This document shows, piece after piece, positions 20 through 27,162 of a stretch of DNA of 29,864 bases; the first letter of the stretch is position 1; each line of letters starts with the position of its first letter. Source of the DNA: a virus. Position numbers and translations under genes: made by a program. A model generated the notes under the pieces. The model had not been told where the DNA came from and did no database searches. It saw only the letters and a program-made list of their open reading frames with translations. Location: IMG/VR virus record IMGVR_UViG_3300035158_000510, positions 1 to 29,864 of that record. One strand, written 5' to 3'.

Positions 20-130
20 CCTACAAAAATCTGTAGTCTAAAATGTTCGAGCCACTAATCCACTCTCTGCCGTTTTACGCAGAAAGCCTTAACGGATTAA
101 CGACCACTGGCCTTGCGGCAAGGCTCCTAT
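20..130 (-). ncRNA. Candidate omega (guide) RNA region at the tnpB 3' end
   Basis: In TnpB elements the guide RNA usually overlaps the 3' end of tnpB and runs into the right end of the element. Here that region, read on the minus strand, contains a 6-bp hairpin (GCCTTG, loop, CAAGGC at 110-124) inside the last codons and a second 5-bp hairpin at 21-36 beyond the stop codon. This is position plus hairpins only; no covariance support is available and the boundaries are guesses. Confidence 0.3.
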
Positions 131-1235
131 CCCCTAATTGTTGTTCAGGGATTACTTTTCGCCCTATATTAAGACTGCCATTTATGTCAGCATTAAACCT
201 GAAACCATCCTTGCTGACGTAAAGACCTCGTTTTGCTCTCCTCCCACTAAATGTAGGCTCTGGAGCATCTTTCTCCCAAACTGGAAGTGGATCACCATCA
301 AAGTAAGACGCCTTCGAGGTATAAGATTCTTCAGTAAATACAACACTAATGCTAACTGCTTCTGCTTTATACTTAATCTTCTCTAACAACTTCCAAAATG
401 GTACAAACTGGAAGTTCTGTTTCTGAGGCTTCCTCATCTTTATTCTCTGCTTCCACCCATCGTTCTTACCAATAATAATAGTGCCTATCTTGCGGTCAAT
501 AGCATTTTGCACAACAAAATTAGCTACATGGTGGAAGTAGTTCTCAATTCTCCAGTACCTCTTACGAGCACGTTTCTTACAAGGACGTTTGTTGTACCAC
601 TGATTGATTGACTTCAATATGCGACCATTAACCAATAATGGGCGATGTTGGTTTGAAGTTATCGCACACAGATTATTCAATCCAATATCTATGGCACAAA
701 AACGTTTCTTCTTGACCTTGGCTTTGGGTTTAGCAGGAGCTTCATAAGAAACCTCAACAACAAAACCAAACGTTTGTGGGGTGATTACCACTTGTTTATA
801 CGGCTTATCAAAAGGAACTGAAAAACAGTCATTATTTGCAGTCAGATGTGTTAGATGTTTGCTTGATTGACCTCCTTTGATGGTTTCGCTATAGAACACG
901 ACCTGAGCCAACTTCTTTTTGTAGTACGGTGGTTTAGGTCTTCGCAAGAACTTATCTGGGGTTTTCTTAAAAGCATTACGAGCCTTTTTGAAATTAGTCC
1001 AGTCTGTTAGCACACGGCGAATAGTCTGTTTTGCAGTTTTGGTGTTTCCAAACTGTTTGAAACAATCCAAATCCTTTGTCTCCGCTATAAGAATGCTGAT
1101 GTTAGGAAGTGGTTGACGACCAAACCACGCTTTTCTCATTAGGTAGTTGCACTTATTGTACAACTCTTTTGAGAGTGAGCAGAGATTGATAATTTCTGGA
1201 GTTGGTTTGATATTATGTCGTTCTACCATAATCAT
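75..1235 (-). CDS. tnpB: TnpB-like RuvC nuclease, IS605 OrfB family
   Basis: A 386-residue TnpB/OrfB homologue. Family members are RNA-guided DNA nucleases encoded by IS200/IS605 elements that help keep the element in place. The RuvC-I aspartate is in AIDIGLNN (about residue 182) and the RuvC-III aspartate is in NADINGSLN (about 348). Where most TnpBs have the RuvC-II glutamate, this one reads IIIGKNDGWKQ (about 252) with no acidic residue at the usual place. An alternative glutamate lies in FTEESYTSKAS (about 302). The four cysteines of the usual C-terminal zinc finger are missing. The protein may use a rearranged active site or be inactive. The ATG at 1235 is followed two codons later by another ATG (1229), so either could be the start. 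A TATAAT box ends only 5 bases before the first ATG, which would give a nearly leaderless mRNA. Confidence 0.9.
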   Translation of the reverse strand: MIMVERHNIKPTPEIINLCSLSKELYNKCNYLMRKAWFGRQPLPNISILIAETKDLDCFKQFGNTKTAKQTIRRVLTDWTNFKKARNAFKKTPDKFLRRPKPPYYKKKLAQVVFYSETIKGGQSSKHLTHLTANNDCFSVPFDKPYKQVVITPQTFGFVVEVSYEAPAKPKAKVKKKRFCAIDIGLNNLCAITSNQHRPLLVNGRILKSINQWYNKRPCKKRARKRYWRIENYFHHVANFVVQNAIDRKIGTIIIGKNDGWKQRIKMRKPQKQNFQFVPFWKLLEKIKYKAEAVSISVVFTEESYTSKASYFDGDPLPVWEKDAPEPTFSGRRAKRGLYVSKDGFRFNADINGSLNIGRKVIPEQQLGDRSLAARPVVVNPLRLSA

Positions 1236-1301: not shown

Positions 1302-1493
1302 TTATAGCTTCTGGTAGATTTCCTTAGATTTTTCGGAACAGTTCAGGTACCCTTTGACATCTTTGCGGCCCCACACGCCGGTCGTAACCATCGTAGAGGC
1401 ATCTTCAGCAACCATGTCTTTGGCTTCTTCTATTGATTCTCCAAGCTGTTGCACTCTAGTAGCAACCGCTCTTGAAAAGAGCCCAGTTGCCTC
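1302..1493 (-). pseudogene. C-terminal remainder of the 1918 gene in the -1 frame
   Basis: On the minus strand, immediately after the break near 1490-1495, the -1 frame reads EATGLFSRAVATRVQQLGES, then IEEAKDMVAEDAS, then VWGRKDVKGYLNC, and ends at a TAA at 1302-1304. It is about 63 codons long, amphipathic and charge-balanced, and has no start codon or ribosome site of its own, so it reads as the natural C-terminus of the gene that begins at 1918. Full length would be about 205 residues. Causes could be a 2-base AG duplication or a 1-base loss, a sequence error, or -1 frameshifting; no canonical slippery heptamer is seen here. Confidence 0.55.
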
Positions 1494-1918
1494 TCATCCC
1501 ATCGGTTGGTTGTCAATTTGGGACTTAGGCCATTCACTAGAGGCCCATTCACTCCAGGTTCTTCAGAATAGGTCAGTCCATCAACGTCTAAGCTTCGTTT
1601 GATAGCATCGCCGACATTGGATTTCGCGAAATCCTTTTGTAACAGGAACTTCCAAGTTTCATCCCAGTTTGCGAATTGCAGTTCATCATTATCCCGAACT
1701 GCGGCAAATATTTCCTGATCTAAATCGTTGACAGAAACTTCGGTAATGATGGGTTCAAGGGTTAGAACTCCAGGTAGTTGCGCGAATAATTGATTGAACA
1801 TACGCAGCAGGCTGGCAGCGGTCTCGGCTTGCGGGGTTTCGCGTAATCCTAGAAGGAACTCCATGGTAAGAGGATTAGCCTGTTGAGCCACCTTTACTGA
1901 GCGAAATAACCAGTTCAT
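1430..1918 (-). CDS. Unknown phage protein, N-terminal part of a frameshifted gene
   Basis: A 162-residue reading frame of unknown function. It opens with MNWLFRSVKVAQQANPL, matching the N-terminal signature of virion-block proteins later in the window (MNWLVRFAQ at 14370, MNWLKKTAL at 25080). The body is mixed helical and acidic (residues about 30-110). The last residues after about TTNRWDE look unnatural, and the -1 frame continues with a well-formed, stop-free sequence to 1302. The frame was therefore probably interrupted near 1490-1495 (motif GAGAGG on the minus strand). An AAGG Shine-Dalgarno-like site sits 8 bases before the ATG, and a TATAAT box lies at 1952-1957. This gene and tnpB are the only ones on the minus strand. 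Confidence 0.6.
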   Translation of the reverse strand: MNWLFRSVKVAQQANPLTMEFLLGLRETPQAETAASLLRMFNQLFAQLPGVLTLEPIITEVSVNDLDQEIFAAVRDNDELQFANWDETWKFLLQKDFAKSNVGDAIKRSLDVDGLTYSEEPGVNGPLVNGLSPKLTTNRWDERQLGSFQERLLLECNSLENQ

Positions 1919-4759: not shown

Positions 4760-5478
4760 CCGAAGACCGCTATACCCGACAGATATCTGTTCTTGGCCTT
4801 GAGAACCATAAAAAACTCCGCGAAAAACGAGTGGCTATCGTGGGCTGCGGCGGAATGGGTTGCGTTGTTGGCTCTTCGTTAGCACGGTCAGGTGTCAATC
4901 TGACGTTGATAGATGACGACCGAGTTGAGCCCAGCAACCTGCAACGCCAAGAACTGTTTTCCACGCCGGATGTTGGTGAATTCAAAGTGGCTCGTGCAGG
5001 GGTGCGTCTGCTGCGGATCAACCCCGGCATTCGGCTCCGTCTAGAGTCGAAACGATTGACGCATGAAAATGCAGAACAACTATTAGCGGAAGCAGATGTA
5101 ATCGCTGATTGTACCGACAACATGGCCAGTCGTTTCATAATCAACGAGTGGGCCATCAAGCTCGGTAAGCCCTGGGTATACGGGGGCGTCACCGAAACAG
5201 AAGGCAGAGTTTGGGGTATCATCCCCGGTCAAACGCCATGCTTTTTCTGCATAATGGAATTGAGCATTTGCGGAACACCTGATGTCGAACGCGGAGTTCT
5301 GGGAGCCGCAGTTGGCATGGTCGGCAGTATGCAGGCCCTGGAAGTAATCAAACTGCTGACCGGGAACTACGGAGCTTTGAGCGGTTATCTAGCAATCGAT
5401 TGCTGGACTTCACAGATTAGGAGAATCGAAGTCAAAAAGAACGAAAAGTGCAGATGCAATGTTACTCGACCCACATAA
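4747..5478 (+). CDS. E1/ThiF/MoeB-like adenylyltransferase
   Basis: A 243-residue E1-superfamily enzyme; the family adenylates the C-terminus of ubiquitin-like proteins (MoeB, ThiF) or the t6A base of tRNA (TcdA). It has the RYTRQISV start (residues 8-15), the Rossmann loop VGCGGMG (32-38), DDDRVEPSNLQRQ (about 58-70), DCTDN...R (about 118-127) and VYGGV. Cysteine pairs CFFC (about 164) and CRC at the very C-terminus probably bind zinc. Its length fits MoeB/HesA. It overlaps the RNA ligase by 13 bases and HD-Pnk by 20, so it is translated within the RNA-repair operon. No ubiquitin-like partner, E2 or rhodanese gene is visible nearby. A tRNA-directed role like that of TcdA fits the context best but is inference. 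Confidence 0.85.
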   Translation: MGRITEDRYTRQISVLGLENHKKLREKRVAIVGCGGMGCVVGSSLARSGVNLTLIDDDRVEPSNLQRQELFSTPDVGEFKVARAGVRLLRINPGIRLRLESKRLTHENAEQLLAEADVIADCTDNMASRFIINEWAIKLGKPWVYGGVTETEGRVWGIIPGQTPCFFCIMELSICGTPDVERGVLGAAVGMVGSMQALEVIKLLTGNYGALSGYLAIDCWTSQIRRIEVKKNEKCRCNVTRPT

Positions 5479-6496
5479 ACTGGATACGCCTTGGGTTGAG
5501 GCCATGCGTCAATGTGAGCAGAGTCCCATCTATCATGGTGAAGGTGATGTTTGGACTCATACCTTACTGGTATGCTCGGCCTTACAGGGACTCCGCGCCT
5601 ATCAGGGGCAGCCTCCAGAGATACAGGACATTCTGCATACAGCAGCGATCTTTCACGATTGTGCCAAACCCGATACCTTCGCAATAGATGACGGGCGCAT
5701 CACCAGCAAAAACCACGCTCCCAAAGGGGCTATAAAAGCTCGACGTATCCTGTGGGAAATGGGAGTTCCGTTTCAAACCCGAGAAGCCGTCTGCAATCTG
5801 GTCAGATATCACATGCGACCTTTTCATTTGTTGGATTCATCCGACATGGAAAGTTATGTGGCTCAGATTAGTCTGTGTTGCCGAACTGATTTGCTGGCCA
5901 TTTTAGCCGAAGCAGATGCTTTAGGGCGTTCAACTCCTAAACCAGATTCTGCCAGTGTTGAGCGAGTTCATCTCTTCGGTGAATTTTGTCAAGAGATTGG
6001 ATGCTGGGGAGTGCCATACCCATTCGCATCCGATCATGCTCGCGTAGCTCACTTCAATCTTGGGCAAGATATTCGCAGTCAAGCTCGGCCTCCCTTGAGT
6101 CCGACAGTTACAGTCATGGCAGGCTTGCCGGGCTCTGGCAAAGATTACTACATTCAGAATAGGACGAATGGCGAGCCAGTCATTTCATTGGATGAAATCC
6201 GAAAAGAAATGAAGATTCGTCCGGAAGACAATCAAGGGCCTGTGCTTGATCGGGCCAAAACGAGAGCCCGGGAGCTATTGGCTGCCAGAAAGGATTTCAT
6301 CTGGAATGCTACGAACGTAAGCAAGTTTGTTCGAGGTAAGTGTCTTTCATTGCTACGCCGTTATAACGCCAGGATTTGCATTGTGTATGTCGAAACTGGT
6401 TACGAAGATTTGTGGCGTCAAAACAAAGACCGAAAAAACCTGTGCCCGAGCCCGTCATTCAGAGGTTGCTTGAGAAGTGGGAAATACCAGACCTAA
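5459..6496 (+). CDS. HD-Pnk: HD phosphoesterase fused to a 5'-OH polynucleotide kinase (shifted C-terminus)
   Basis: A 345-residue frame with two domains. The HD domain has H34, H66-D67 (AIFHDCAKPDT), a YH..P histidine and EADALGR (about 155). The P-loop kinase has GLPGSGKD (about 222-229), VISLDE, an arginine-rich helix and WNATNVSK. HD-Pnk enzymes, as characterised in Runella slithyformis, remove 2',3'-cyclic phosphates and phosphorylate 5'-OH ends, giving ligase-ready RNA. After about residue 326 the frame becomes unnatural (NLCPSPSFRGC). The -1 frame instead gives PVPEPVIQRLLEKWEIPDLT and ends in DVTHVTV at a TAA (6529-6531), which is the expected kinase C-terminus. The shift point is an in-phase A AAA AAC (6433-6439). 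Full-length product would be about 357 residues. It overlaps the E1-like gene by 20 bases. Confidence 0.88.
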   Translation: MLLDPHKLDTPWVEAMRQCEQSPIYHGEGDVWTHTLLVCSALQGLRAYQGQPPEIQDILHTAAIFHDCAKPDTFAIDDGRITSKNHAPKGAIKARRILWEMGVPFQTREAVCNLVRYHMRPFHLLDSSDMESYVAQISLCCRTDLLAILAEADALGRSTPKPDSASVERVHLFGEFCQEIGCWGVPYPFASDHARVAHFNLGQDIRSQARPPLSPTVTVMAGLPGSGKDYYIQNRTNGEPVISLDEIRKEMKIRPEDNQGPVLDRAKTRARELLAARKDFIWNATNVSKFVRGKCLSLLRRYNARICIVYVETGYEDLWRQNKDRKNLCPSPSFRGCLRSGKYQT

Positions 6497-6531
6497 CGGA
6501 AGCCCATGATGTAACCCACGTTACTGTATAA
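6433..6531 (+). other. -1 frameshift site and true C-terminal coding end of HD-Pnk
   Basis: The heptamer A AAA AAC (6433-6439) lies in the zero frame of HD-Pnk (CGA AAA AAC), exactly as in canonical -1 programmed frameshift sites. Moving to the -1 frame opens 30 codons (6439-6528) with a sequence typical of the kinase C-terminus, ending at TAA 6529-6531. Loss of one A from the 6-A run would look the same, so this is either programmed frameshifting, a recent mutation or a homopolymer error. Confidence 0.6.
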
Positions 6532-6969: not shown

Positions 6970-8094
6970 ATGCCCGATACCGAACAAGAGCAAGTGCATC
7001 TTATACCACCGATTGGCAACAAAAAGGTAAAAGCCAGAAAAGAAGCCTTCTGTAAGTTTATAAACGAGAACAAACAGAAGCCATTCATAATCTGCGCCCA
7101 CGATAATCCCGATCCAGATGCTCTTGCTTCTGCCTATGGTGTGTATCGCATCCTGTCGTTCTTGGGAGTGGATTCAATTCAAATGTTCTATTGCGGAGAG
7201 ATTTCTCATCCGCAGAACCGGGCCATGAAGACGGTTTTGAAAATACCCATCAACGTCTGGACGAAGCCCATTGAAAATGAGTTCATCAATGCGAATGAAA
7301 AACCTATTTTCGTGTTTGTGGATTGCGTGGGCAATCAGAAAAACATGAGCATACCGTTTGACCCGCAGATTGTGATTGACCATCACAAAACAATCCCCGG
7401 GAAGGGAATCCTGGCCATTCACGATGAAATCGGAGCGTGTTCAACTTTAGTTGTTGATCTGATGCTCTCTCTTTCTTTGCAGGAAGATGATATTAAAGTT
7501 CCGTGTTTTGATCCTGATACAGACGATATGAAGGAAATTGCGACAGCTTTAGCAGTGGGTATCAAAACAGACACGCTGGACTTTCTGACCGAGACCACTA
7601 CAGATGAGGATTTCCAGGCATACAAGATTCTGAGTCGCCATTTTAGCGACGAGAAGTTCCATAAAATCGTGAATTATGAGCTACCTCCTTACGTTTTTGA
7701 TGCCGAACAAACGGCATGGGAGAATAAGAACTATCAGCCGCCGAATCTAATAGCTGGATTGGGTTTTCTGGATGATTCGAAGAGTGATTGCATCCCTTAT
7801 TTGGCCGATAAGTTCATGAGATTGCAGGGAATCCAGACCGTTGTGGTGTATGCTATTGTAGATGGTGCAGTGCGAGGTAGTGTTCGAACTTCAAGTTCAA
7901 CCTTGGATGCCCAGAACCTGCTTGATGAACTATTTGGCCAGGGCAACGGCGGTGCGAAGCATGGCATCGGCGGAGCCAAAGTCCATATAAATGTCTTCGA
8001 CGTACCATCGATGCCAGAGGATGAAATGACGGGACTCTGGGATTTGGTAAAAACGAACATCCAACGAAAATTCCAGAAAATTACCGAAAAATGA
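6970..8094 (+). CDS. DHH/DHHA1 phosphoesterase, NrnA/RecJ-like
   Basis: A 374-residue DHH-superfamily phosphoesterase. Bacterial relatives include NrnA (nanoRNase/pAp phosphatase), cyclic-dinucleotide phosphodiesterases and RecJ. Manganese-binding motifs are AHDNPDPDALASAYG (about 43-57), FVDC (about 116), VIDHHKT (about 136-142) and GIKTDTLDF (about 197-205). A C-terminal DHHA1 domain contains GSVRTSS and a glycine/histidine patch (GGAKHGIGGAK, about 325-335) in place of the usual GGGH. The length and two-domain form fit NrnA-like enzymes rather than the longer RecJ. The first about 30 residues are an extra basic extension. Possible jobs are recycling of short RNAs or breaking down signalling nucleotides used by host defences; the sequence cannot tell which. 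Confidence 0.85.
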   Translation: MPDTEQEQVHLIPPIGNKKVKARKEAFCKFINENKQKPFIICAHDNPDPDALASAYGVYRILSFLGVDSIQMFYCGEISHPQNRAMKTVLKIPINVWTKPIENEFINANEKPIFVFVDCVGNQKNMSIPFDPQIVIDHHKTIPGKGILAIHDEIGACSTLVVDLMLSLSLQEDDIKVPCFDPDTDDMKEIATALAVGIKTDTLDFLTETTTDEDFQAYKILSRHFSDEKFHKIVNYELPPYVFDAEQTAWENKNYQPPNLIAGLGFLDDSKSDCIPYLADKFMRLQGIQTVVVYAIVDGAVRGSVRTSSSTLDAQNLLDELFGQGNGGAKHGIGGAKVHINVFDVPSMPEDEMTGLWDLVKTNIQRKFQKITEK

Positions 8095-10879: not shown

Positions 10880-13800
10880 ATGGGAAAAGAGTGTCCACTT
10901 AATGCTGTGGCTCGCAATGTCGCAGCTAAGAGATATTACCGCAAAGATGAAGACGGGAACAACATTGAAGATTGGGACGGGCTAGTAAAGAGAGTAACAA
11001 AAGCAGTTTGTGGCCACGAGCCTCCTCAATTCCAGAAGAAGATTTCGAAACTAATATATAGCACAAAGTTCCTACCGAATTCACCCTGTTTGGTGAACGC
11101 AGGCAACGTAGTCGGCGGATTATTGGCATGTTTTGTCACAAAGAGCCCAGAAGATAGCTGGGTCGGCATGTGTGAAAACATCGCTAACTTTGGTCACATT
11201 GCCCGTCGTGGTGGTGGATGTGGAGTAGATTTCTCTCAAATTCGACCTTCAGGGGATCGAGTATTCGGTTCAACTCACTACAAAGCCTGCGGCCCTGTCA
11301 ACCACATGATTGTTGTCTCAGAAGCTATGAATTCAATCACGCAAGCGGGCTTCCGAGGCATGGCGAACATGGGCGTATTGCGGGTGGATCATCCCGATAT
11401 AGAAAAGTTCGTTCTATGCAAACAACGTGAATTCGCCCTTAAGTATCTACTCAAAGAAGATTTCTTCAATCACTTTGAAAAGTTGAATGGGCATACTCAC
11501 GAACATGCAAATATCTTGCTAGATAAGTTCATATCAAACTTTAACATTTCCGTTCTGACAACTGATGAATTCATGCAGGCAGTTGAGAAGAACGATTCAT
11601 TTGAATTACGGTTCAAGGAAACATCATATGGCCAGATAAAAGCTCGTAAGCTATTTGATACCATTGTGGATAACGCCTGGAACAATGGAGACCCGGGTCT
11701 GATTTTCTATGATACGATGAACAGAGGGCCTTATGCGTATAGCGGTCAAATAGTAACAGCTACCAATCCTTGCGTCGTGGCGGGATCGCTAGTTGCAACC
11801 CAAAAAGGATGGATACCTGTTGAGGATGTTCATGAAGGCGATTTGATTTGGTCTCGCAATTCTTTATATCCAGTGAAAACTAAAGAGATCAACCATGGCT
11901 GTCGAGTTTATAGGGTGGAATTCACGGATGGAGATCATATTGATGTCACGGCTGCTCATCGATTCAAATGTGTAGTATCAAAGAAATACGAATATAGAAG
12001 GCTGGATGAGCTATGTGAAGGCTCCAAAGTTCTTGTGGAACCTATCGACTTGTCCCGTATGGTTCGGAATGACATTTATGAAACAATATCTCAAAAAGAT
12101 TTCGAGATATTAGAACAAAAGGGAATAAAGGAACATTTAATTCTTGGGGGGCATACAGGAAATCAGAGAGATCTTGGTCTTATTCTCGGGGCTGTTATTG
12201 GTGATGGTTGTTTTACGGAAGGTTCAAACAGATACAATGTTAAAGTCGCATTTGGTCATCACGAAGCAGCATGGCAGTCTAAGTTCAAGCAGAAGCTTGA
12301 TAGATATTTGATCAAAAATAGTCTAGAAACAGGCGAATCTTCGAATAGGATCACTTCGAATGCTTTGGGTTGGCTGCTTGAAGTATTCGGACTCAAACGC
12401 AATAAAGCTCCTGATAAGACTATCCCTGAGAACATTTTACAGTCGAACAATAGGGATCTGCTTGTCGGTTTACTTGATGGTCTATTTAGCACCGATGGCA
12501 ACATGTATCTCAAAGAAGATAATCCCATGTTGCGATTTACAAGCGCCAGCCATGAGCTGTGCAAACAAATACGTAGGATTCTACTTGCGTTTGGTATACA
12601 TGCAAGGATTTACAAAACCGATAGAAAACAGCATATATACTGCGATCCTAAATATGGTGCTAGAAAAATTTCCTCGGAGAACCCCAAGTATGATGTTGTT
12701 ATTATGAACAAAGGGATTGCTCAATTCCATCATGCTGTTTCTCTGACAAACCCTGATAAGGAGGATAAAATAAGCAAGTGCGTTGCCACTTATCATTATG
12801 TGGGAACATCATGGACTGCTACAATAAAGTCCATAACCCCTCTGGATGGCGAACATACAGTTTATGATCTCTATAATGAAGAAACTGATGAATGGAATGT
12901 AAATGGTTACGTGCAGCAAGGATGCGGTGAACAGATGCTGCCGCAATGGGGTTCTTGCAATCTCGGTTCTATCGATGTATCTAAGTTCTACAATGCGAAT
13001 AGTAATGATGTAGATTGGGACGAACTGCGTGATGCTATCCGCACTGCTTTTCAATTCCTTGACAATGTGATAGACCGCAACAAATTCCCCACGGCTGAAT
13101 TTGAGAAGTGGGCCGAGGATAACCGCCCGGTAGGATTGGGAATCATGGGCTGGGCTGATCTTCTTCTAAAGAAGAAGGTTGCTTATGGCGATGAAGAATC
13201 GCTGGCTTATGCTGAGAAGTTATCCAAGTTCTTCAAAGACGTTGCTCATGAAAAATCTGTCGAGTTAGCAGAAGAAAGAGGAACGCCAAAATCATGTCAA
13301 TATCGCGAACTAGATTATCGTCGCAATGTAACAACATTGTCGATTGCTCCTACAGGTTCTATTGCTCTGATTGCGGGATGTAACGGCTCTATTGAACCTT
13401 TTTATGCTCCAACCACTTTCCGTTCTGATAATACTGGTTCTTACAAAATGGAGCATCCGGAAGCAAATGAAGAATACTTCCGTTGTGCTGTAGACAAAGA
13501 AAACGATGGGAGACGAGAAGTCCATTGGCAACAGCATATCGATATGCAAGCAGCTTTCCAGAAGAATGTTGATTCAGGTATCTCTAAGACTATTAACATG
13601 CCAACTAGTGCCACTATAGAAGATGTGGCCAATGCTTATTTCCGGGCTTGGAAGAATGGATGTAAGGGCATTACCATCTATCGAGATGAATGTAAGACCA
13701 CCCAGGTTCTCACTTCTGATGACAAGACCAGCACAAACTACGGATCTAGTTCTGCCAACTCCAGGCCCAAGAGCATTGACTGTGATATCTACAAGACTTC

Positions 13801-14284
13801 AGCCGAGGGAATGCAGTGGCATATTATCGTAGGGCTTCTGAATGGCCAGCCCTATGAGATTTTTGCGGTGAATGGGGGTTTCGAGGAGTTGCCATCACAA
13901 GGTCAGGTCGTAAAGAAGAAGAAACGGCATTATTCTCTGCTGGATGAATCCGATGGCGTTCTTATTGATAATCTAAACGAAGTTGAGGAAGAGATCGATC
14001 CAAGACTTGGCCTGGAAACCCGACGATTCAGCCTGGAGTTGCGTCACGGCATACCTCCCAAATACATCGTTCAGCAGATCGATAAAAGTAGTGACAAGCT
14101 TACCAGCTTCTCGAAGGCTGTCGGGCGTATTCTAAAGAAACACTATCTCACCGTAGAAGAAATTGTAGCTGTCTCTGACGATAAATACTGTGAAAAATGT
14201 GCCCAAAAGGGCAAGAAAACTGAGATGCAGCCGGAATCAGGCTGTCTGAAGTGTCCTGATTGTTTTCATTCGCGTTGTGGATAA
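10880..14284 (+). CDS. nrdJ: Class II (adenosylcobalamin-type) ribonucleotide reductase interrupted by an intein
   Basis: A 1134-residue precursor: 297 residues of N-extein, a 384-residue intein, then 453 of C-extein, giving a 750-residue reductase that converts ribonucleotides to deoxyribonucleotides for phage DNA synthesis. Reductase landmarks are PCLVNAGN and GGLLACFV (first redox Cys), RRGGGCGVDFS, NFNISV, TNP|CGEQ split by the intein, GSCNLGSI (radical Cys), and APTGSIALIAGCNGSIEP. The C-terminal CEKC...GCLKCPDCFHSRC cysteine cluster resembles the tail of NrdJ enzymes. No N-terminal ATP cone is apparent. A stretch at about 190-225 (FALKYLLKEDFFNHFEKLNG) looks like an insertion before NFNISV. 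The strong GAGGAGAG site fixes the start. No small subunit or activase gene follows, in line with class II. A strong terminator ends the unit. Confidence 0.9.
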   Translation: MGKECPLNAVARNVAAKRYYRKDEDGNNIEDWDGLVKRVTKAVCGHEPPQFQKKISKLIYSTKFLPNSPCLVNAGNVVGGLLACFVTKSPEDSWVGMCENIANFGHIARRGGGCGVDFSQIRPSGDRVFGSTHYKACGPVNHMIVVSEAMNSITQAGFRGMANMGVLRVDHPDIEKFVLCKQREFALKYLLKEDFFNHFEKLNGHTHEHANILLDKFISNFNISVLTTDEFMQAVEKNDSFELRFKETSYGQIKARKLFDTIVDNAWNNGDPGLIFYDTMNRGPYAYSGQIVTATNPCVVAGSLVATQKGWIPVEDVHEGDLIWSRNSLYPVKTKEINHGCRVYRVEFTDGDHIDVTAAHRFKCVVSKKYEYRRLDELCEGSKVLVEPIDLSRMVRNDIYETISQKDFEILEQKGIKEHLILGGHTGNQRDLGLILGAVIGDGCFTEGSNRYNVKVAFGHHEAAWQSKFKQKLDRYLIKNSLETGESSNRITSNALGWLLEVFGLKRNKAPDKTIPENILQSNNRDLLVGLLDGLFSTDGNMYLKEDNPMLRFTSASHELCKQIRRILLAFGIHARIYKTDRKQHIYCDPKYGARKISSENPKYDVVIMNKGIAQFHHAVSLTNPDKEDKISKCVATYHYVGTSWTATIKSITPLDGEHTVYDLYNEETDEWNVNGYVQQGCGEQMLPQWGSCNLGSIDVSKFYNANSNDVDWDELRDAIRTAFQFLDNVIDRNKFPTAEFEKWAEDNRPVGLGIMGWADLLLKKKVAYGDEESLAYAEKLSKFFKDVAHEKSVELAEERGTPKSCQYRELDYRRNVTTLSIAPTGSIALIAGCNGSIEPFYAPTTFRSDNTGSYKMEHPEANEEYFRCAVDKENDGRREVHWQQHIDMQAAFQKNVDSGISKTINMPTSATIEDVANAYFRAWKNGCKGITIYRDECKTTQVLTSDDKTSTNYGSSSANSRPKSIDCDIYKTSAEGMQWHIIVGLLNGQPYEIFAVNGGFEELPSQGQVVKKKKRHYSLLDESDGVLIDNLNEVEEEIDPRLGLETRRFSLELRHGIPPKYIVQQIDKSSDKLTSFSKAVGRILKKHYLTVEEIVAVSDDKYCEKCAQKGKKTEMQPESGCLKCPDCFHSRCG
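11771..12922 (+). mobile_element. LAGLIDADG-type intein in the RNR active site
   Basis: A 384-residue in-frame insert (precursor residues 298-681) between TNP and CGEQ of the reductase, a highly conserved site used by many RNR inteins. It begins with Cys (CVVAGSLVATQKGW), has block B with T..H (VTAAHRF), two LAGLIDADG helices (LGLILGAVIGDG and LLVGLLDGLFSTDG, acidic residues kept), and block F (HTVYDLYNEETDEW). Block G reads NGYVQQG before the extein Cys, so the last intein residue is Gly, where Asn (or Gln/Asp) is needed for cyclisation, and the penultimate residue is Gln rather than His. Splicing may therefore be impaired or unusual. The nuclease domain looks intact. Confidence 0.9.
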
Positions 14285-14337: not shown

Positions 14338-14369
14338 CGTGTAAAAGATAGGGTAGCTTGAGGCTACCT

Positions 14370-16655
14370 ATGAACTGGCTGGTTAGATTTGCACAACATA
14401 TAGTTCCTTTATCCGTCAACGGCTTACAGCAAATCCTTGCCACCGCTCCGGACATGGAAGGTCAGGGATATCTGTTTGAAGGCCCGGGAACGGCGGATCT
14501 GCGTCAAATGCGGGCTGCCGCCAGATTCAAAGATACTGTCAACACTGCTCTAAACTACTTTCATTCCATCTTTGAATCTATGGCTGATGATATTCGAGTG
14601 GATGCGAATTATACAAGGGTTCCTGTGCGTGGCCCGGATGGCCAGCCCAAGAGAGACGAGCATGGCAACATAGTTACCGTGCAAGAACGCCAGAACTATC
14701 CTGAACCGACATATGATTACGACGAACAACGACTTGAAGAGGAAATAGGACAATACGCCGACATGTATGTGGCCGACTTGGATTTTACGCATGTTGGCGA
14801 TGACGACTGGGAGAATTTCCTTCAGCATCTGGATGATGGAGAACAACTTCCTCGTCTCTTCAAGGATTACTATGAGCAAATACTTGGAAGATTCAATGTT
14901 CCTGAGATAGAATCTGTTCAACCCATTTGGAAAGAAATCCAGGAATACGCAGAAATTTTTGCTTCTGAAGGCGTGTCTTTGCGGAACTCGATGGACAACA
15001 TACAAGCTGCATACCAGGCTGCGTCAGAAGACCCAGATGATGTTGCTTTGCTAGAAGAATTCTATCAAAGCATGGGCGAAATCAGCGCCGAAATGCTCTC
15101 AGAAATCATGGCTAACAACGAACGTTTATCGTGGATAACTACGCCCGCTGATAGACGAAAAGATTTGCCAGGGACTCTGGAATGGATAGACGACAAAAAG
15201 TTCCAAGAGCAAGCGAACGACACTTTTGATAATGATTCGACTGTATCCGAATGGTATGCCGAATACCACAAAGACAGCTTGCGTAACAGCGCCGAAGAAA
15301 GTATGGCAGAATCCGATTCAGAATATGCTAGAGAACATGCACGAGAGATGTATCACCGGTTTGGATTCAATCCTTATGACCTATTCACGGAGGACTACTA
15401 TCGAGAGCCGATTGAAGACGATGATGATGAACGTAAAGATATAGAGATCTCTAGTTTGCTGGAAATCATAGAGAAGATGCGAGAGATTGGGGGCGTTTCG
15501 CCGGGCGTTTGGAATACAAGCGGGACTGCTGCAATGTATATCCAGGGTATTCGAGAAGTGCTCAGTCAGCATGACGCCCTGAAAGATATGTTCTCTAACG
15601 AACTGAATCGCACAGCACCTGAATCTAGAATGATATTGGATGGCATCGAGTCCAATCTAGAACATCCAGAGCAAATTCCAGGCGAGCTAAGAGCCAACGA
15701 CGCCATTCAACAAATTATCTTACAACGAGAGATGGATAGAGATCGTCAAGAGGAGGCTCGTCGTCTTTTCGAAGAACAACAACGTTTACAACAAGAAGAG
15801 CAAGGGAAATTCCATCATATGCTTCGTCCCGGCCAGGGCAAACTGACCCCTGAGGAATTGGCTAAACTGAAAGAACTAGGATTAGCCAATAGGCCGTTTC
15901 CTCATGCCTACAGTCTGCAACGGGGATCTTATCCTGGTTCTGGATATGGGGCCATGCCGAAGTATTTAGAGCCGTTCCAAATTTCGGTCTCTCCAACATC
16001 AGATATGGTGAGGATGCCTCCCGGCAGACGAAATCGCTCCAGGGAAGAAGACAAAGATCGGATTCCTTATAACTTAATGACAGGTCTCCCATTTCATACG
16101 GTTGAGCAGGTGGAAGGCGTCCCTACGTTGGGCTGGGTGGGCGGCTACGCTGATTACGCTGAGAAGGTGTTTTACATCACTGAAGTTCAAAGCGATATTA
16201 TGCAACGAACGCCGTATATGCGAGATCCGGGCAAGGCTCATAAGTTCTGGGAGAACGAAGTCGCCCGACTAGAAAGAAGAATACAAGAATACAAAGCCAA
16301 CGCTCAGCAGCCTCAATTAAGTCCCAGAGAACGAATTCAACAGAAGATAGATTCCATCATGCAAGAGCAGCAAAAGCTATTGTATATGGAACGTATGGGG
16401 CATCCGCAAACTGCTAAATATCAGAACAACGAAGCGTTGCTACAGAAACTACAGCAGCAACTGCAACGCGCTCCCGCCGAGGTGGCCCCTAATCGGTCGG
16501 GACAGCAACTGGCAGAATTGCAGCGGCAATTGCAAACAGCCAAAGATCGTCTTGGAAGACAATCACAAACCGACGAGCTATATGGAACTGAAAACAAAGA
16601 CCCGAGAAAATGGCATGATTGGCGTTCTCGCGTGGAAAACCGATTCAAAGATTGA
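14370..16655 (+). CDS. Large EVQSD-motif protein, N-terminal part up to an in-frame TGA
   Basis: A 761-residue frame. The ATG at 14370 has TTGAGG 6 bases upstream; an in-frame TTG at 14358 is that same site and not a start. It opens with MNWLVRFAQHI, the signature shared with other virion-block proteins. Residues about 20-480 are acidic and helical (many Asp/Glu/Tyr). A long Gln/Glu/Arg coiled coil lies around 450-490, and another Gln-rich coil around 630-740. Near 600, GWVGGYADYAEKVFYITEVQ with SD after it carries the EVQSD motif found in large phage and plasmid proteins, including polyvalent proteins. It stops at a TGA (16653-16655) right after KWHDWRSRVENRFKD. The same frame then continues with a natural extension, so this is probably the front of a roughly 1110-residue protein. 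Likely a virion or ejected protein. Confidence 0.7.
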   Translation: MNWLVRFAQHIVPLSVNGLQQILATAPDMEGQGYLFEGPGTADLRQMRAAARFKDTVNTALNYFHSIFESMADDIRVDANYTRVPVRGPDGQPKRDEHGNIVTVQERQNYPEPTYDYDEQRLEEEIGQYADMYVADLDFTHVGDDDWENFLQHLDDGEQLPRLFKDYYEQILGRFNVPEIESVQPIWKEIQEYAEIFASEGVSLRNSMDNIQAAYQAASEDPDDVALLEEFYQSMGEISAEMLSEIMANNERLSWITTPADRRKDLPGTLEWIDDKKFQEQANDTFDNDSTVSEWYAEYHKDSLRNSAEESMAESDSEYAREHAREMYHRFGFNPYDLFTEDYYREPIEDDDDERKDIEISSLLEIIEKMREIGGVSPGVWNTSGTAAMYIQGIREVLSQHDALKDMFSNELNRTAPESRMILDGIESNLEHPEQIPGELRANDAIQQIILQREMDRDRQEEARRLFEEQQRLQQEEQGKFHHMLRPGQGKLTPEELAKLKELGLANRPFPHAYSLQRGSYPGSGYGAMPKYLEPFQISVSPTSDMVRMPPGRRNRSREEDKDRIPYNLMTGLPFHTVEQVEGVPTLGWVGGYADYAEKVFYITEVQSDIMQRTPYMRDPGKAHKFWENEVARLERRIQEYKANAQQPQLSPRERIQQKIDSIMQEQQKLLYMERMGHPQTAKYQNNEALLQKLQQQLQRAPAEVAPNRSGQQLAELQRQLQTAKDRLGRQSQTDELYGTENKDPRKWHDWRSRVENRFKD
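16653..16655 (+). other. In-frame TGA splitting a conserved domain
   Basis: The frame before (ENRFKD) and after (VPVFFNVAVREAKRREFAKV) this TGA reads as one conserved stretch, and the usual residue here in related EVQSD proteins as I recall them is Trp. A single TGG to TGA change would explain it. TGA is used as an ordinary stop by many genes in this window, so genome-wide recoding is unlikely. Confidence 0.5.
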
Positions 16656-16673
16656 GTTCCTGTTTTCTTCAAC

Positions 16674-17702
16674 GTGGCTGTGCGAGAGGCCAAAAGGAGA
16701 GAATTCGCAAAAGTGCGAATTATTACAGCAGATGAGCTTATGAAAATCTGGGCTTCTTTTGGAGGGCCAGAAAAGAGACAGCTTTTTGAACGGATATATA
16801 ACAGAACCGCAGAACGCTACGGAGCTACGATAGTTCGAGCTTACGACCGGCAATGGTATGAGATCGATCTTGGCACCGAAGATTTGCGTTATGCGTCAAG
16901 GAGACCGGACGTGAATAACTGGGTCAAACGAGCTTTTGTGAAAGAAGCCAGCGAGTGGGAGGGCATCTCGCCTGTAGATCGTCGGCCAATATGGCAGAGC
17001 GCTCTGGACGCCTATGTTGAAGAATTCAGGAACGAAGGTGACCTCAGTGACGATGAGATAATTCAGAAGTTTATACAGCACGCTCGTTCTAAGATGAGCC
17101 CCGGATATGAGCCCAGAGTCAGGGCATATGCTGCGGAGAAATTCAATATTGTTCCGGGAGAACCTGCTATGGATGCTGGTTATGCTGTAGATGATGTTAA
17201 CGCTATTCCAGGATACAGCGCGGCTCAAGACCAAAGCATTCGACTGACTACTCACTTAGATAGATTCTTCGATGTAATGAGAAGAGAAAGTCCAGAATTG
17301 CAAGGGCCTGAATTTGAAACCGCAAACGAGGGATGGGAACAAGAAGAGAATAACAGGCTGATTTTCGCTGAGTGGATGAGAAATGCGGTGCATGATCTCC
17401 CATTTTTATTCGATGAGACAGGCGAGCTAACACCCCAGGCCAGAGAAGCTGTCAAGCAGCATGTTATTCAAACACAAGGATTCGACCCATTTGACGATGA
17501 GCAAGGAGAAGGAGCTGAACTTGAACCACGAGATCCAGATGAAAGTGACGATACAGGTGATGTCTCTTTAGAGGCTCTGAACAATATGTTTTCTGATTCG
17601 GTGTATGATCCGGGCGCTGCGGAAGAACGTCATCGCAGCAGGACTGATGAAGAGGATGTTCAACCACCTTCTCCTGCTGAATTAGAGCAATGGTGGCGGT
17701 AA
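16674..17702 (+). CDS. C-terminal part of the split EVQSD-motif protein
   Basis: A 342-residue frame in phase with the gene before the TGA at 16653. The first available start is GTG 16674 without a ribosome site; ATG 16740 is the next, also weak. This supports a once-continuous protein. The N-terminal part, VREAKRREFAKVRIITADEL, followed by W, YNRTAERYGA and WYEIDL, matches the usual second half of the EVQSD domain, which suggests a nucleotide- or substrate-handling pocket. After about residue 80 it is helical and acidic with no recognised domain, and the tail (from about 280) is very acidic (DEQGEGAELEPRDPDESDD) and probably disordered. Its stop is separated by 2 bases from the next gene. 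Translation without readthrough or recoding is doubtful. Confidence 0.6.
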   Translation: MAVREAKRREFAKVRIITADELMKIWASFGGPEKRQLFERIYNRTAERYGATIVRAYDRQWYEIDLGTEDLRYASRRPDVNNWVKRAFVKEASEWEGISPVDRRPIWQSALDAYVEEFRNEGDLSDDEIIQKFIQHARSKMSPGYEPRVRAYAAEKFNIVPGEPAMDAGYAVDDVNAIPGYSAAQDQSIRLTTHLDRFFDVMRRESPELQGPEFETANEGWEQEENNRLIFAEWMRNAVHDLPFLFDETGELTPQAREAVKQHVIQTQGFDPFDDEQGEGAELEPRDPDESDDTGDVSLEALNNMFSDSVYDPGAAEERHRSRTDEEDVQPPSPAELEQWWR

Positions 17703-26386: not shown

Positions 26387-26837
26387 TTTCATTAACGTTT
26401 TGCCTTTTCAGGCAATCCAGATTATCCCTCGTTCTCCTATCACCAATAAAGAGGCCAAGGCTCTTTTCTCTATTTGGAACAGTGAAAAAGACCCATCCGG
26501 TTACCAAACTGTCCCCGAAGATGTTGATCCTATGGTCGTAGCAGCCTTGACCACCAAAGGAATGGTCAACAACAAACCGCTCAGTAGAATTGGAGAGAGC
26601 GGAAACCCCGTTAGGACTGTAGAGATAACTGGCAAAGGCAAGACTATCATCCGCAATATCATTTTGCACGCTGAGAAGTCATCGTTTGAAAATAACGACT
26701 TTGACTTCAACTACGAGTTTATACACAGGGCATCTGACAATAGTCAGGGCAAAATAGCATCTGTGGTCAACCAGACATGTGCCAACTGGGTACAACGAGC
26801 ATTCAGACATGGAATTACTCCTGAGAGCGACAAATAA
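26352..26837 (+). CDS. Unknown protein, virion block
   Basis: A 161-residue protein starting inside the end of the nucleotidyltransferase gene (35-base overlap), with AGGAG 7 bases before the ATG at 26352. It begins MMTKKKAQSLLDFINVLPFQ. There is a central part that looks like a small winged-helix or mixed fold (PMVVAALTTKGMVNNKPLSR followed by VRTVEITGKGKTIIRNIILH), then a polar C-terminus (NYEFIHRASDNSQ). The TTKG...EITGKG pattern recalls marR-like wings, but the match is too weak to name. A 58-base gap without features follows. Confidence 0.55.
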   Translation: MMTKKKAQSLLDFINVLPFQAIQIIPRSPITNKEAKALFSIWNSEKDPSGYQTVPEDVDPMVVAALTTKGMVNNKPLSRIGESGNPVRTVEITGKGKTIIRNIILHAEKSSFENNDFDFNYEFIHRASDNSQGKIASVVNQTCANWVQRAFRHGITPESDK

Positions 26838-26895
26838 AAGGGTTAGAAGAAAAGTAGAGCGGGACTTTCAGTGGTATGACACTTACTAAGGTCAA

Positions 26896-27162
26896 ATGCT
26901 GCATGGCCGCGGCGGAGAGATGAGGTTCAAATACGTTCCCAAGCTCAAAAGAAGCATTCCCTACATCGTTGATGCAGAGGAATGGGTCACAGAAAACAAC
27001 TATGATGAGATAGCCGAGTGGGTTAAAAAGAACGGATTTCCAGTGGTTGAATCTGCTCCTAGATACTTCATTACCGTCGAAATCCCGGCAAGTGATTTCG
27101 ATGATACCACAAGGGAACTTTACAATAAAAAAATTCTTTTCGACTGGGAGACTAACGGATGA
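26896..27162 (+). CDS. Small unknown protein
   Basis: An 88-residue protein. The ATG at 26896 has AAGG 4 bases upstream; an internal ATG at 26920 lies too close (2 bases) to a GGAG, so the first start is kept, but MRFKYVPKL from 26920 is possible. The sequence is compact and globular, with DAEEWVTENNYDEIAEWVKK (helical) and APRYFITVEIPASDFDD (strand). No recognised family. It ends in an ATGA overlap with the DUF192 gene, so the two may function together. Confidence 0.6.
   Translation: MLHGRGGEMRFKYVPKLKRSIPYIVDAEEWVTENNYDEIAEWVKKNGFPVVESAPRYFITVEIPASDFDDTTRELYNKKILFDWETNG

Follow-up and report, generated by a model that had tools for sequence, protein, structure and literature searches.

An in-frame TGA in the EVQSD gene

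We found that a gene coding for a long phage protein, the EVQSD protein, is interrupted by an in-frame TGA (positions 16653 to 16655, plus strand) that is very probably a nonsense lesion at a normal TGG codon of an otherwise intact, once-continuous gene, either a recent mutation or an error in the metagenome consensus. The sequence analyzed (the window hereafter, 29,864 bases in full) is a fragment of a tailed-phage genome, whose genes include TerL, an intein-bearing ribonucleotide reductase and a peptide deformylase. The EVQSD gene occupies positions 14370 to 17702 of the plus strand, about 1,110 codons including the stop position, and is a single gene in relatives; the open reading frame (ORF) is listed as 14358 to 16655, with its first ATG at 14370. 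As the initial annotation had stated, the TGA lies within this frame, which beyond it (16656 to 17702) stays open for 348 codons, up to a TAA at 17700 to 17702, and encodes the conserved end of the protein. Codon preference is alike before and after the TGA (0.254 and 0.257 bits per codon, with negative values in the other frames), so both parts are coding to an equal degree. The gene contains 20 TGG codons and a single one is broken, which is compatible with any single event.

An uninterrupted form of the gene is seen in G003 (contig IMGVR_UViG_3300009702_000365, 48 kb), where the EVQSD gene is a single ORF of 1,053 amino acids (L173:4207-7368) with Trp at the site of the TGA. This protein (L136/L173) aligns with the whole window protein (33% identity, 761 residues, E 3e-97), and around the site the window reads FKD-stop-VPVFFNVAVREAKRREFAKVRII and G003 reads FKDWVPIFFNVAIREAKRREFNKVRII. 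Both contigs share the gene order ribonucleotide reductase, EVQSD protein, 615-amino-acid protein, 136-amino-acid protein and TerL, the last being 64 to 65% identical between them. The ribonucleotide reductases (window 10880 to 14284; L173:93-3815) both carry an intein-like insert, at distinct positions, and their overall identity is about 25 to 31%, unlike that of the neighboring TerL (64%). An MNWL-type N terminus recurs in the window at 14370, 25080 and 1918 (the latter on the minus strand) and in L173 (MNWLTKISQ), and may represent a shared leader or a signal for packaging. At the left end of the window, a TnpB/IS605 OrfB-like gene identified by Pfam (75 to 1235, minus strand) adjoins the MNWL-type ORF at 1430 to 1918 (minus strand).

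Homologues across the stop

We aligned the window protein with seven distinct homologues from six contigs (alignment A1: L136, L172 twice, L132, L119, L169 and L144), leaving out L153, a repeat of the L132 protein. Also excluded from the count was L009/L010, a distant homologue whose Trp sits in a similar place. Among the matches listed, the column of the TGA is Trp in all seven distinct homologues of the subfamily, the residue that had been expected there, and none of the seven is split into two genes. The set was picked by a motif of the first half only, so a split homologue could have appeared in it. A profile of 74 columns across the stop, built from the seven homologues with the window excluded, scored the window at 72.7 bits with X at the stop and 81.1 with W. 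The halves reached 12.2 and 44.4 bits when scored separately, which bears out the proposal that both sides of the TGA belong to one conserved segment.

In a wider sample, degenerate motif scans of viral_contigs gave at least 165 ORFs with the EVQSD motif, 132 of which were recovered by an iterated profile. The matching column is Tyr in 59, Trp in 57, Gln in 11, His in 2 and another residue in 3, that is, Tyr or Trp in 116 of the 132; these ORFs are stop-free by construction, and the count says nothing about the absence of stops. For some 25 further ORFs outside the subfamily of the window, among the matches listed, no second half was detected, which may reflect contig ends or divergence.

Closer relatives were sought in several ways. 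Exact peptide words of both EVQSD halves and of TerL recovered no close relatives from viral_contigs, the read-through protein found none among phages at E 0.01, shorter EVQSD cores gave only chance-level matches at E 10, and blastn of the whole gene against phages returned no result. The two-sequence alignments A2 and A3 found no relative in genome_contigs, and A2 recovered only an already known contig from viral_contigs. Ribonucleotide reductase relatives were present there at four loci (27 to 33% identity), which lack an EVQSD homologue as judged by motif. The PHROGs family phrog_23994, a weak match of a distant homologue, did not match the window.

A predicted fold cut by the stop

An AlphaFold2 model of window positions 15855 to 17003, with the TGA read as Trp, had a mean pLDDT of 72.6. 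It has strands, the EVQSD residues lying at the end of one of them, and a coiled-coil insert; next come a helix that starts at the Trp, one strand, another helix and a final pair of strands. A GNAT-like fold is predicted from this model (residues 15 to 340, window 15897 to 16874, plus strand), as it is from that of a sister protein, and the TGA cuts it at the start of a helix (residues 267 to 281); the predicted coiled-coil insert (residues 124 to 236, window 16224 to 16562, plus strand) separates the EVQSD strand from the Trp helix. When the window model was compared by VIA-align, the rows spanning the region outside the coiled coil were GNAT acetyltransferases (e.g., 1y9k, Z 7.6, 118 residues aligned, 3.6 A), and many other rows matched the coiled-coil insert alone. 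The homologue L119, modeled separately (mean pLDDT 67.6), also had GNATs as its top rows, namely 3lod (Z 10.3, 117 aligned, 2.7 A) and SpeG 5wif (Z 10.2, 125 aligned, 3.1 A). Foldseek alone gave no significant PDB match (E <= 0.001) for either model. The topology of a GNAT is thus seen in predicted models only, and on their evidence the EVQSD segment of these phage proteins probably adopts a GNAT-like fold with a coiled-coil insert.

GNAT enzymes usually bind acetyl-CoA through the motif Q/R-x-x-G-x-G/A at the start of helix 3, and this motif is not among the invariant columns of A1. The invariant residues of the EVQSD segment (window 15897 to 16874; L119:9789-10706) are E, Q, S, D, S, E, N and W, which differ from the usual GNAT motif. 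No Pfam family matched the EVQSD region, either in the window protein or in any of nine homologous proteins or domains. Reading the gene as a whole brings to light this probable GNAT-like fold and its coiled-coil insert, which would be missed if the two halves were annotated apart.

Translation at and beyond the TGA

If the TGA is real, translation would stop after about 761 residues, and the protein would lose the conserved tail and the second half of the GNAT-like fold; considering that the TGA lies inside that fold, the short product would, if the prediction is right, retain only its first half, and we infer a loss of function. The remainder would then be made only through the low natural leakage of UGA or a weak restart. 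For the latter, the assertion of the initial annotation that the downstream part has no ribosome site was too strong, since AAAAGGAG (16692 to 16699) stands 13 nucleotides ahead of an in-frame GTG (16713 to 16715), a weak possible restart spanning 16692 to 16715 on the plus strand. However, AAAAGGAG lies within the coding sequence, and a start at GTG 16713 would skip conserved residues, including the Trp helix.

A short form and some full-length form could be made on purpose, by programmed readthrough or restart, and besides this site the hairpin-rich RNA that follows the stop (-32.1 kcal/mol, z -1.18) could be cited in favor. That structure does not seem unusual, however, as 23 of 200 shuffled sequences folded at least as well, and the TGA interrupts a single conserved segment and a single predicted fold; it marks neither a domain border nor the completion of a protein or domain. 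The stop is absent from all seven distinct homologues among the matches listed, on which ground programmed readthrough was rejected, and this account as a whole seems very improbable indeed. The same observations bear on a true gene fission, by which the lineage of the window would have two separate working genes. The coding character kept in both parts would agree with it, but the cut is inside the conserved segment and predicted fold, the second part lacks a well-placed ribosome site with a start ahead of the conserved residues, and no split homologue occurs among the matches listed; we regard fission as extremely improbable.

For a lesion at a TGG codon, the state of the tail gives an indication of age. 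In simulations of 2,000 trials, the tail was kept open in 10.7% after 50 random substitutions and in 3.8% after 80. A tail so rarely left open under random substitution implies that the stop, if real and if the tail is untranslated, is young.

TGA usage, tRNAs and recoding

UGA could instead be read as Trp, by a suppressor tRNA of the phage or host or by a host that reads UGA in this way, and the exact placement of the TGA at a Trp column is what such decoding would produce. However, TGA is the stop of seven other genes of the window, five of which have a G003 counterpart aligned to nearly the same end. Of 94 columns at which G003 proteins have Trp, the window shows TGG in 54, TGA in 1, TAG in 2 (one just upstream of the EVQSD gene start and one in a spurious upstream extension) and other residues in 37; counting only the shared Trp positions with either TGG or TGA, TGG is used at 54 of 55. 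A genome-wide code change with TGA as Trp was rejected on these counts. ARAGORN found no tRNA in the 29.9-kb window, a fragment, or in any G003 piece, and hence no UCA anticodon there; the known gene set is that of a fragment, and a tRNA may lie outside it. Selenocysteine was also rejected: Rfam detected no family at the gathering score in the window and no SECIS, and the relatives have Trp at the column, not Cys or Sec.

All seven TGA-ended genes of the window (ends at 8094, 8877, 22701, 23195, 25553, 26386 and 27162) have a TAA or TAG at most 17 codons behind, compared with 6 of the 13 TAA- or TAG-ended genes without an in-frame neighbor (Fisher p 0.044; out-of-frame rate 0.42 to 0.44), a pattern that was spotted after the fact and is statistically weak. 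With another stop so close behind each TGA, leakage of UGA would be cheap. One could imagine a host in which UGA is leaky, or is read as Trp late in infection; the TGA in this late gene would then be tolerated and would limit the amount of full-length protein, and the TGA stops with a second stop behind them would belong to the same adaptation. We consider this very unlikely. The TGA-ended ORFs of G003 continue for 0, 3, 13, 44 and 47 codons, and for 0 in one further ORF, before a TAA or TAG, and the two long extensions speak against UGA as Trp. So do a TAA break and a frame break in the same contig, described below, which are beyond repair by UGA suppression. Trp decoding of UGA is accordingly very improbable in our view.

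Further breaks in the contig

The tail at the end of the HD/kinase gene (5459 to 6496) is not that of its family; the family tail is found in the -1 frame after an A-run (6433 to 6438). A homologue of 373 amino acids in LR756500.1, a single ORF, matches its body in frame 2 (E 6.8e-58) and its tail in frame 1 (E 6.7e-4). Taken over positions 5459 to 6525, this HD/polynucleotide-kinase-like gene changes frame at the A-run near 6433 to 6438. We interpret the break as a lesion or an error; less likely is a -1 frameshift on a slippery site, A AAA AAC, that lies in register.

The other break is a TAA (26887 to 26889) in a small late gene (26809 to 27162), at a point where the frame continues uninterrupted in G003. 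The part ahead of this TAA is homologous to G003 (24 amino acids, 46% identity, E 1.8e-4), and the TAA could be a real difference between lineages, translation restarting at ATG 26896.

A TGA, a TAA and a frame change within 29.9 kb, each a different kind of break, are explained better by a consensus error or by damage to the genome than by a mechanism specific to UGA. A random substitution in these codons creates a stop in about 4.5% of cases, and two stop-making substitutions would therefore imply some 45 in all, or about 0.2% of the coding sequence, which would fit a thinly covered consensus. Given the two additional ORF breaks of other kinds, we infer a cause that leans slightly toward consensus error or general damage over a recent mutation in the sampled phage. 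Of the options that the initial annotation had left for the TGA, nonsense mutation and sequence error remain; readthrough and suppression are not supported, considering the seven other TGA-ended genes, the single TGA against 54 TGG, the lack of tRNAs in the window and its 48-kb relative, a stop conserved nowhere among the homologues and the two breaks of other kinds.

Comparison with known systems

A review (PMC11210395) describes phages that are predicted to use code 4, in which TGA encodes Trp. As in those phages, the TGA of the window stands at a Trp column; in contrast to them, TGA is a normal stop in seven genes, only one Trp column is concerned, and no suppressor tRNA was seen in the window or G003. 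Insertion of Trp at leaky TGA codons in E. coli and Salmonella is reported in a study of in-frame stops, with possible leakage, in prokaryotic genes (PMC7918605), which also describes an over-representation of mobilome genes. The window similarly has a single TGA within a conserved gene, but its stop is not conserved, and the relatives are about 33% identical.

The EVQSD protein resembles the phage proteins with a large polyvalent-protein-associated domain (LPD; PMC5512222) in being a long phage protein, and three of its four best BFVD matches (prob 0.97 to 0.99) have either no function beyond the name LPD or none; it differs from them in the EVQSD region, which has no Pfam match. A further comparison is with genes of metagenome contigs that are interrupted by a point nonsense mutation or a consensus error: the window has, as they do, a substitution-type stop in an open homologous frame together with other breaks, and no tested feature differs. 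The case calls mostly for caution, since an in-frame TGA at a conserved Trp is here not a sign of recoding.
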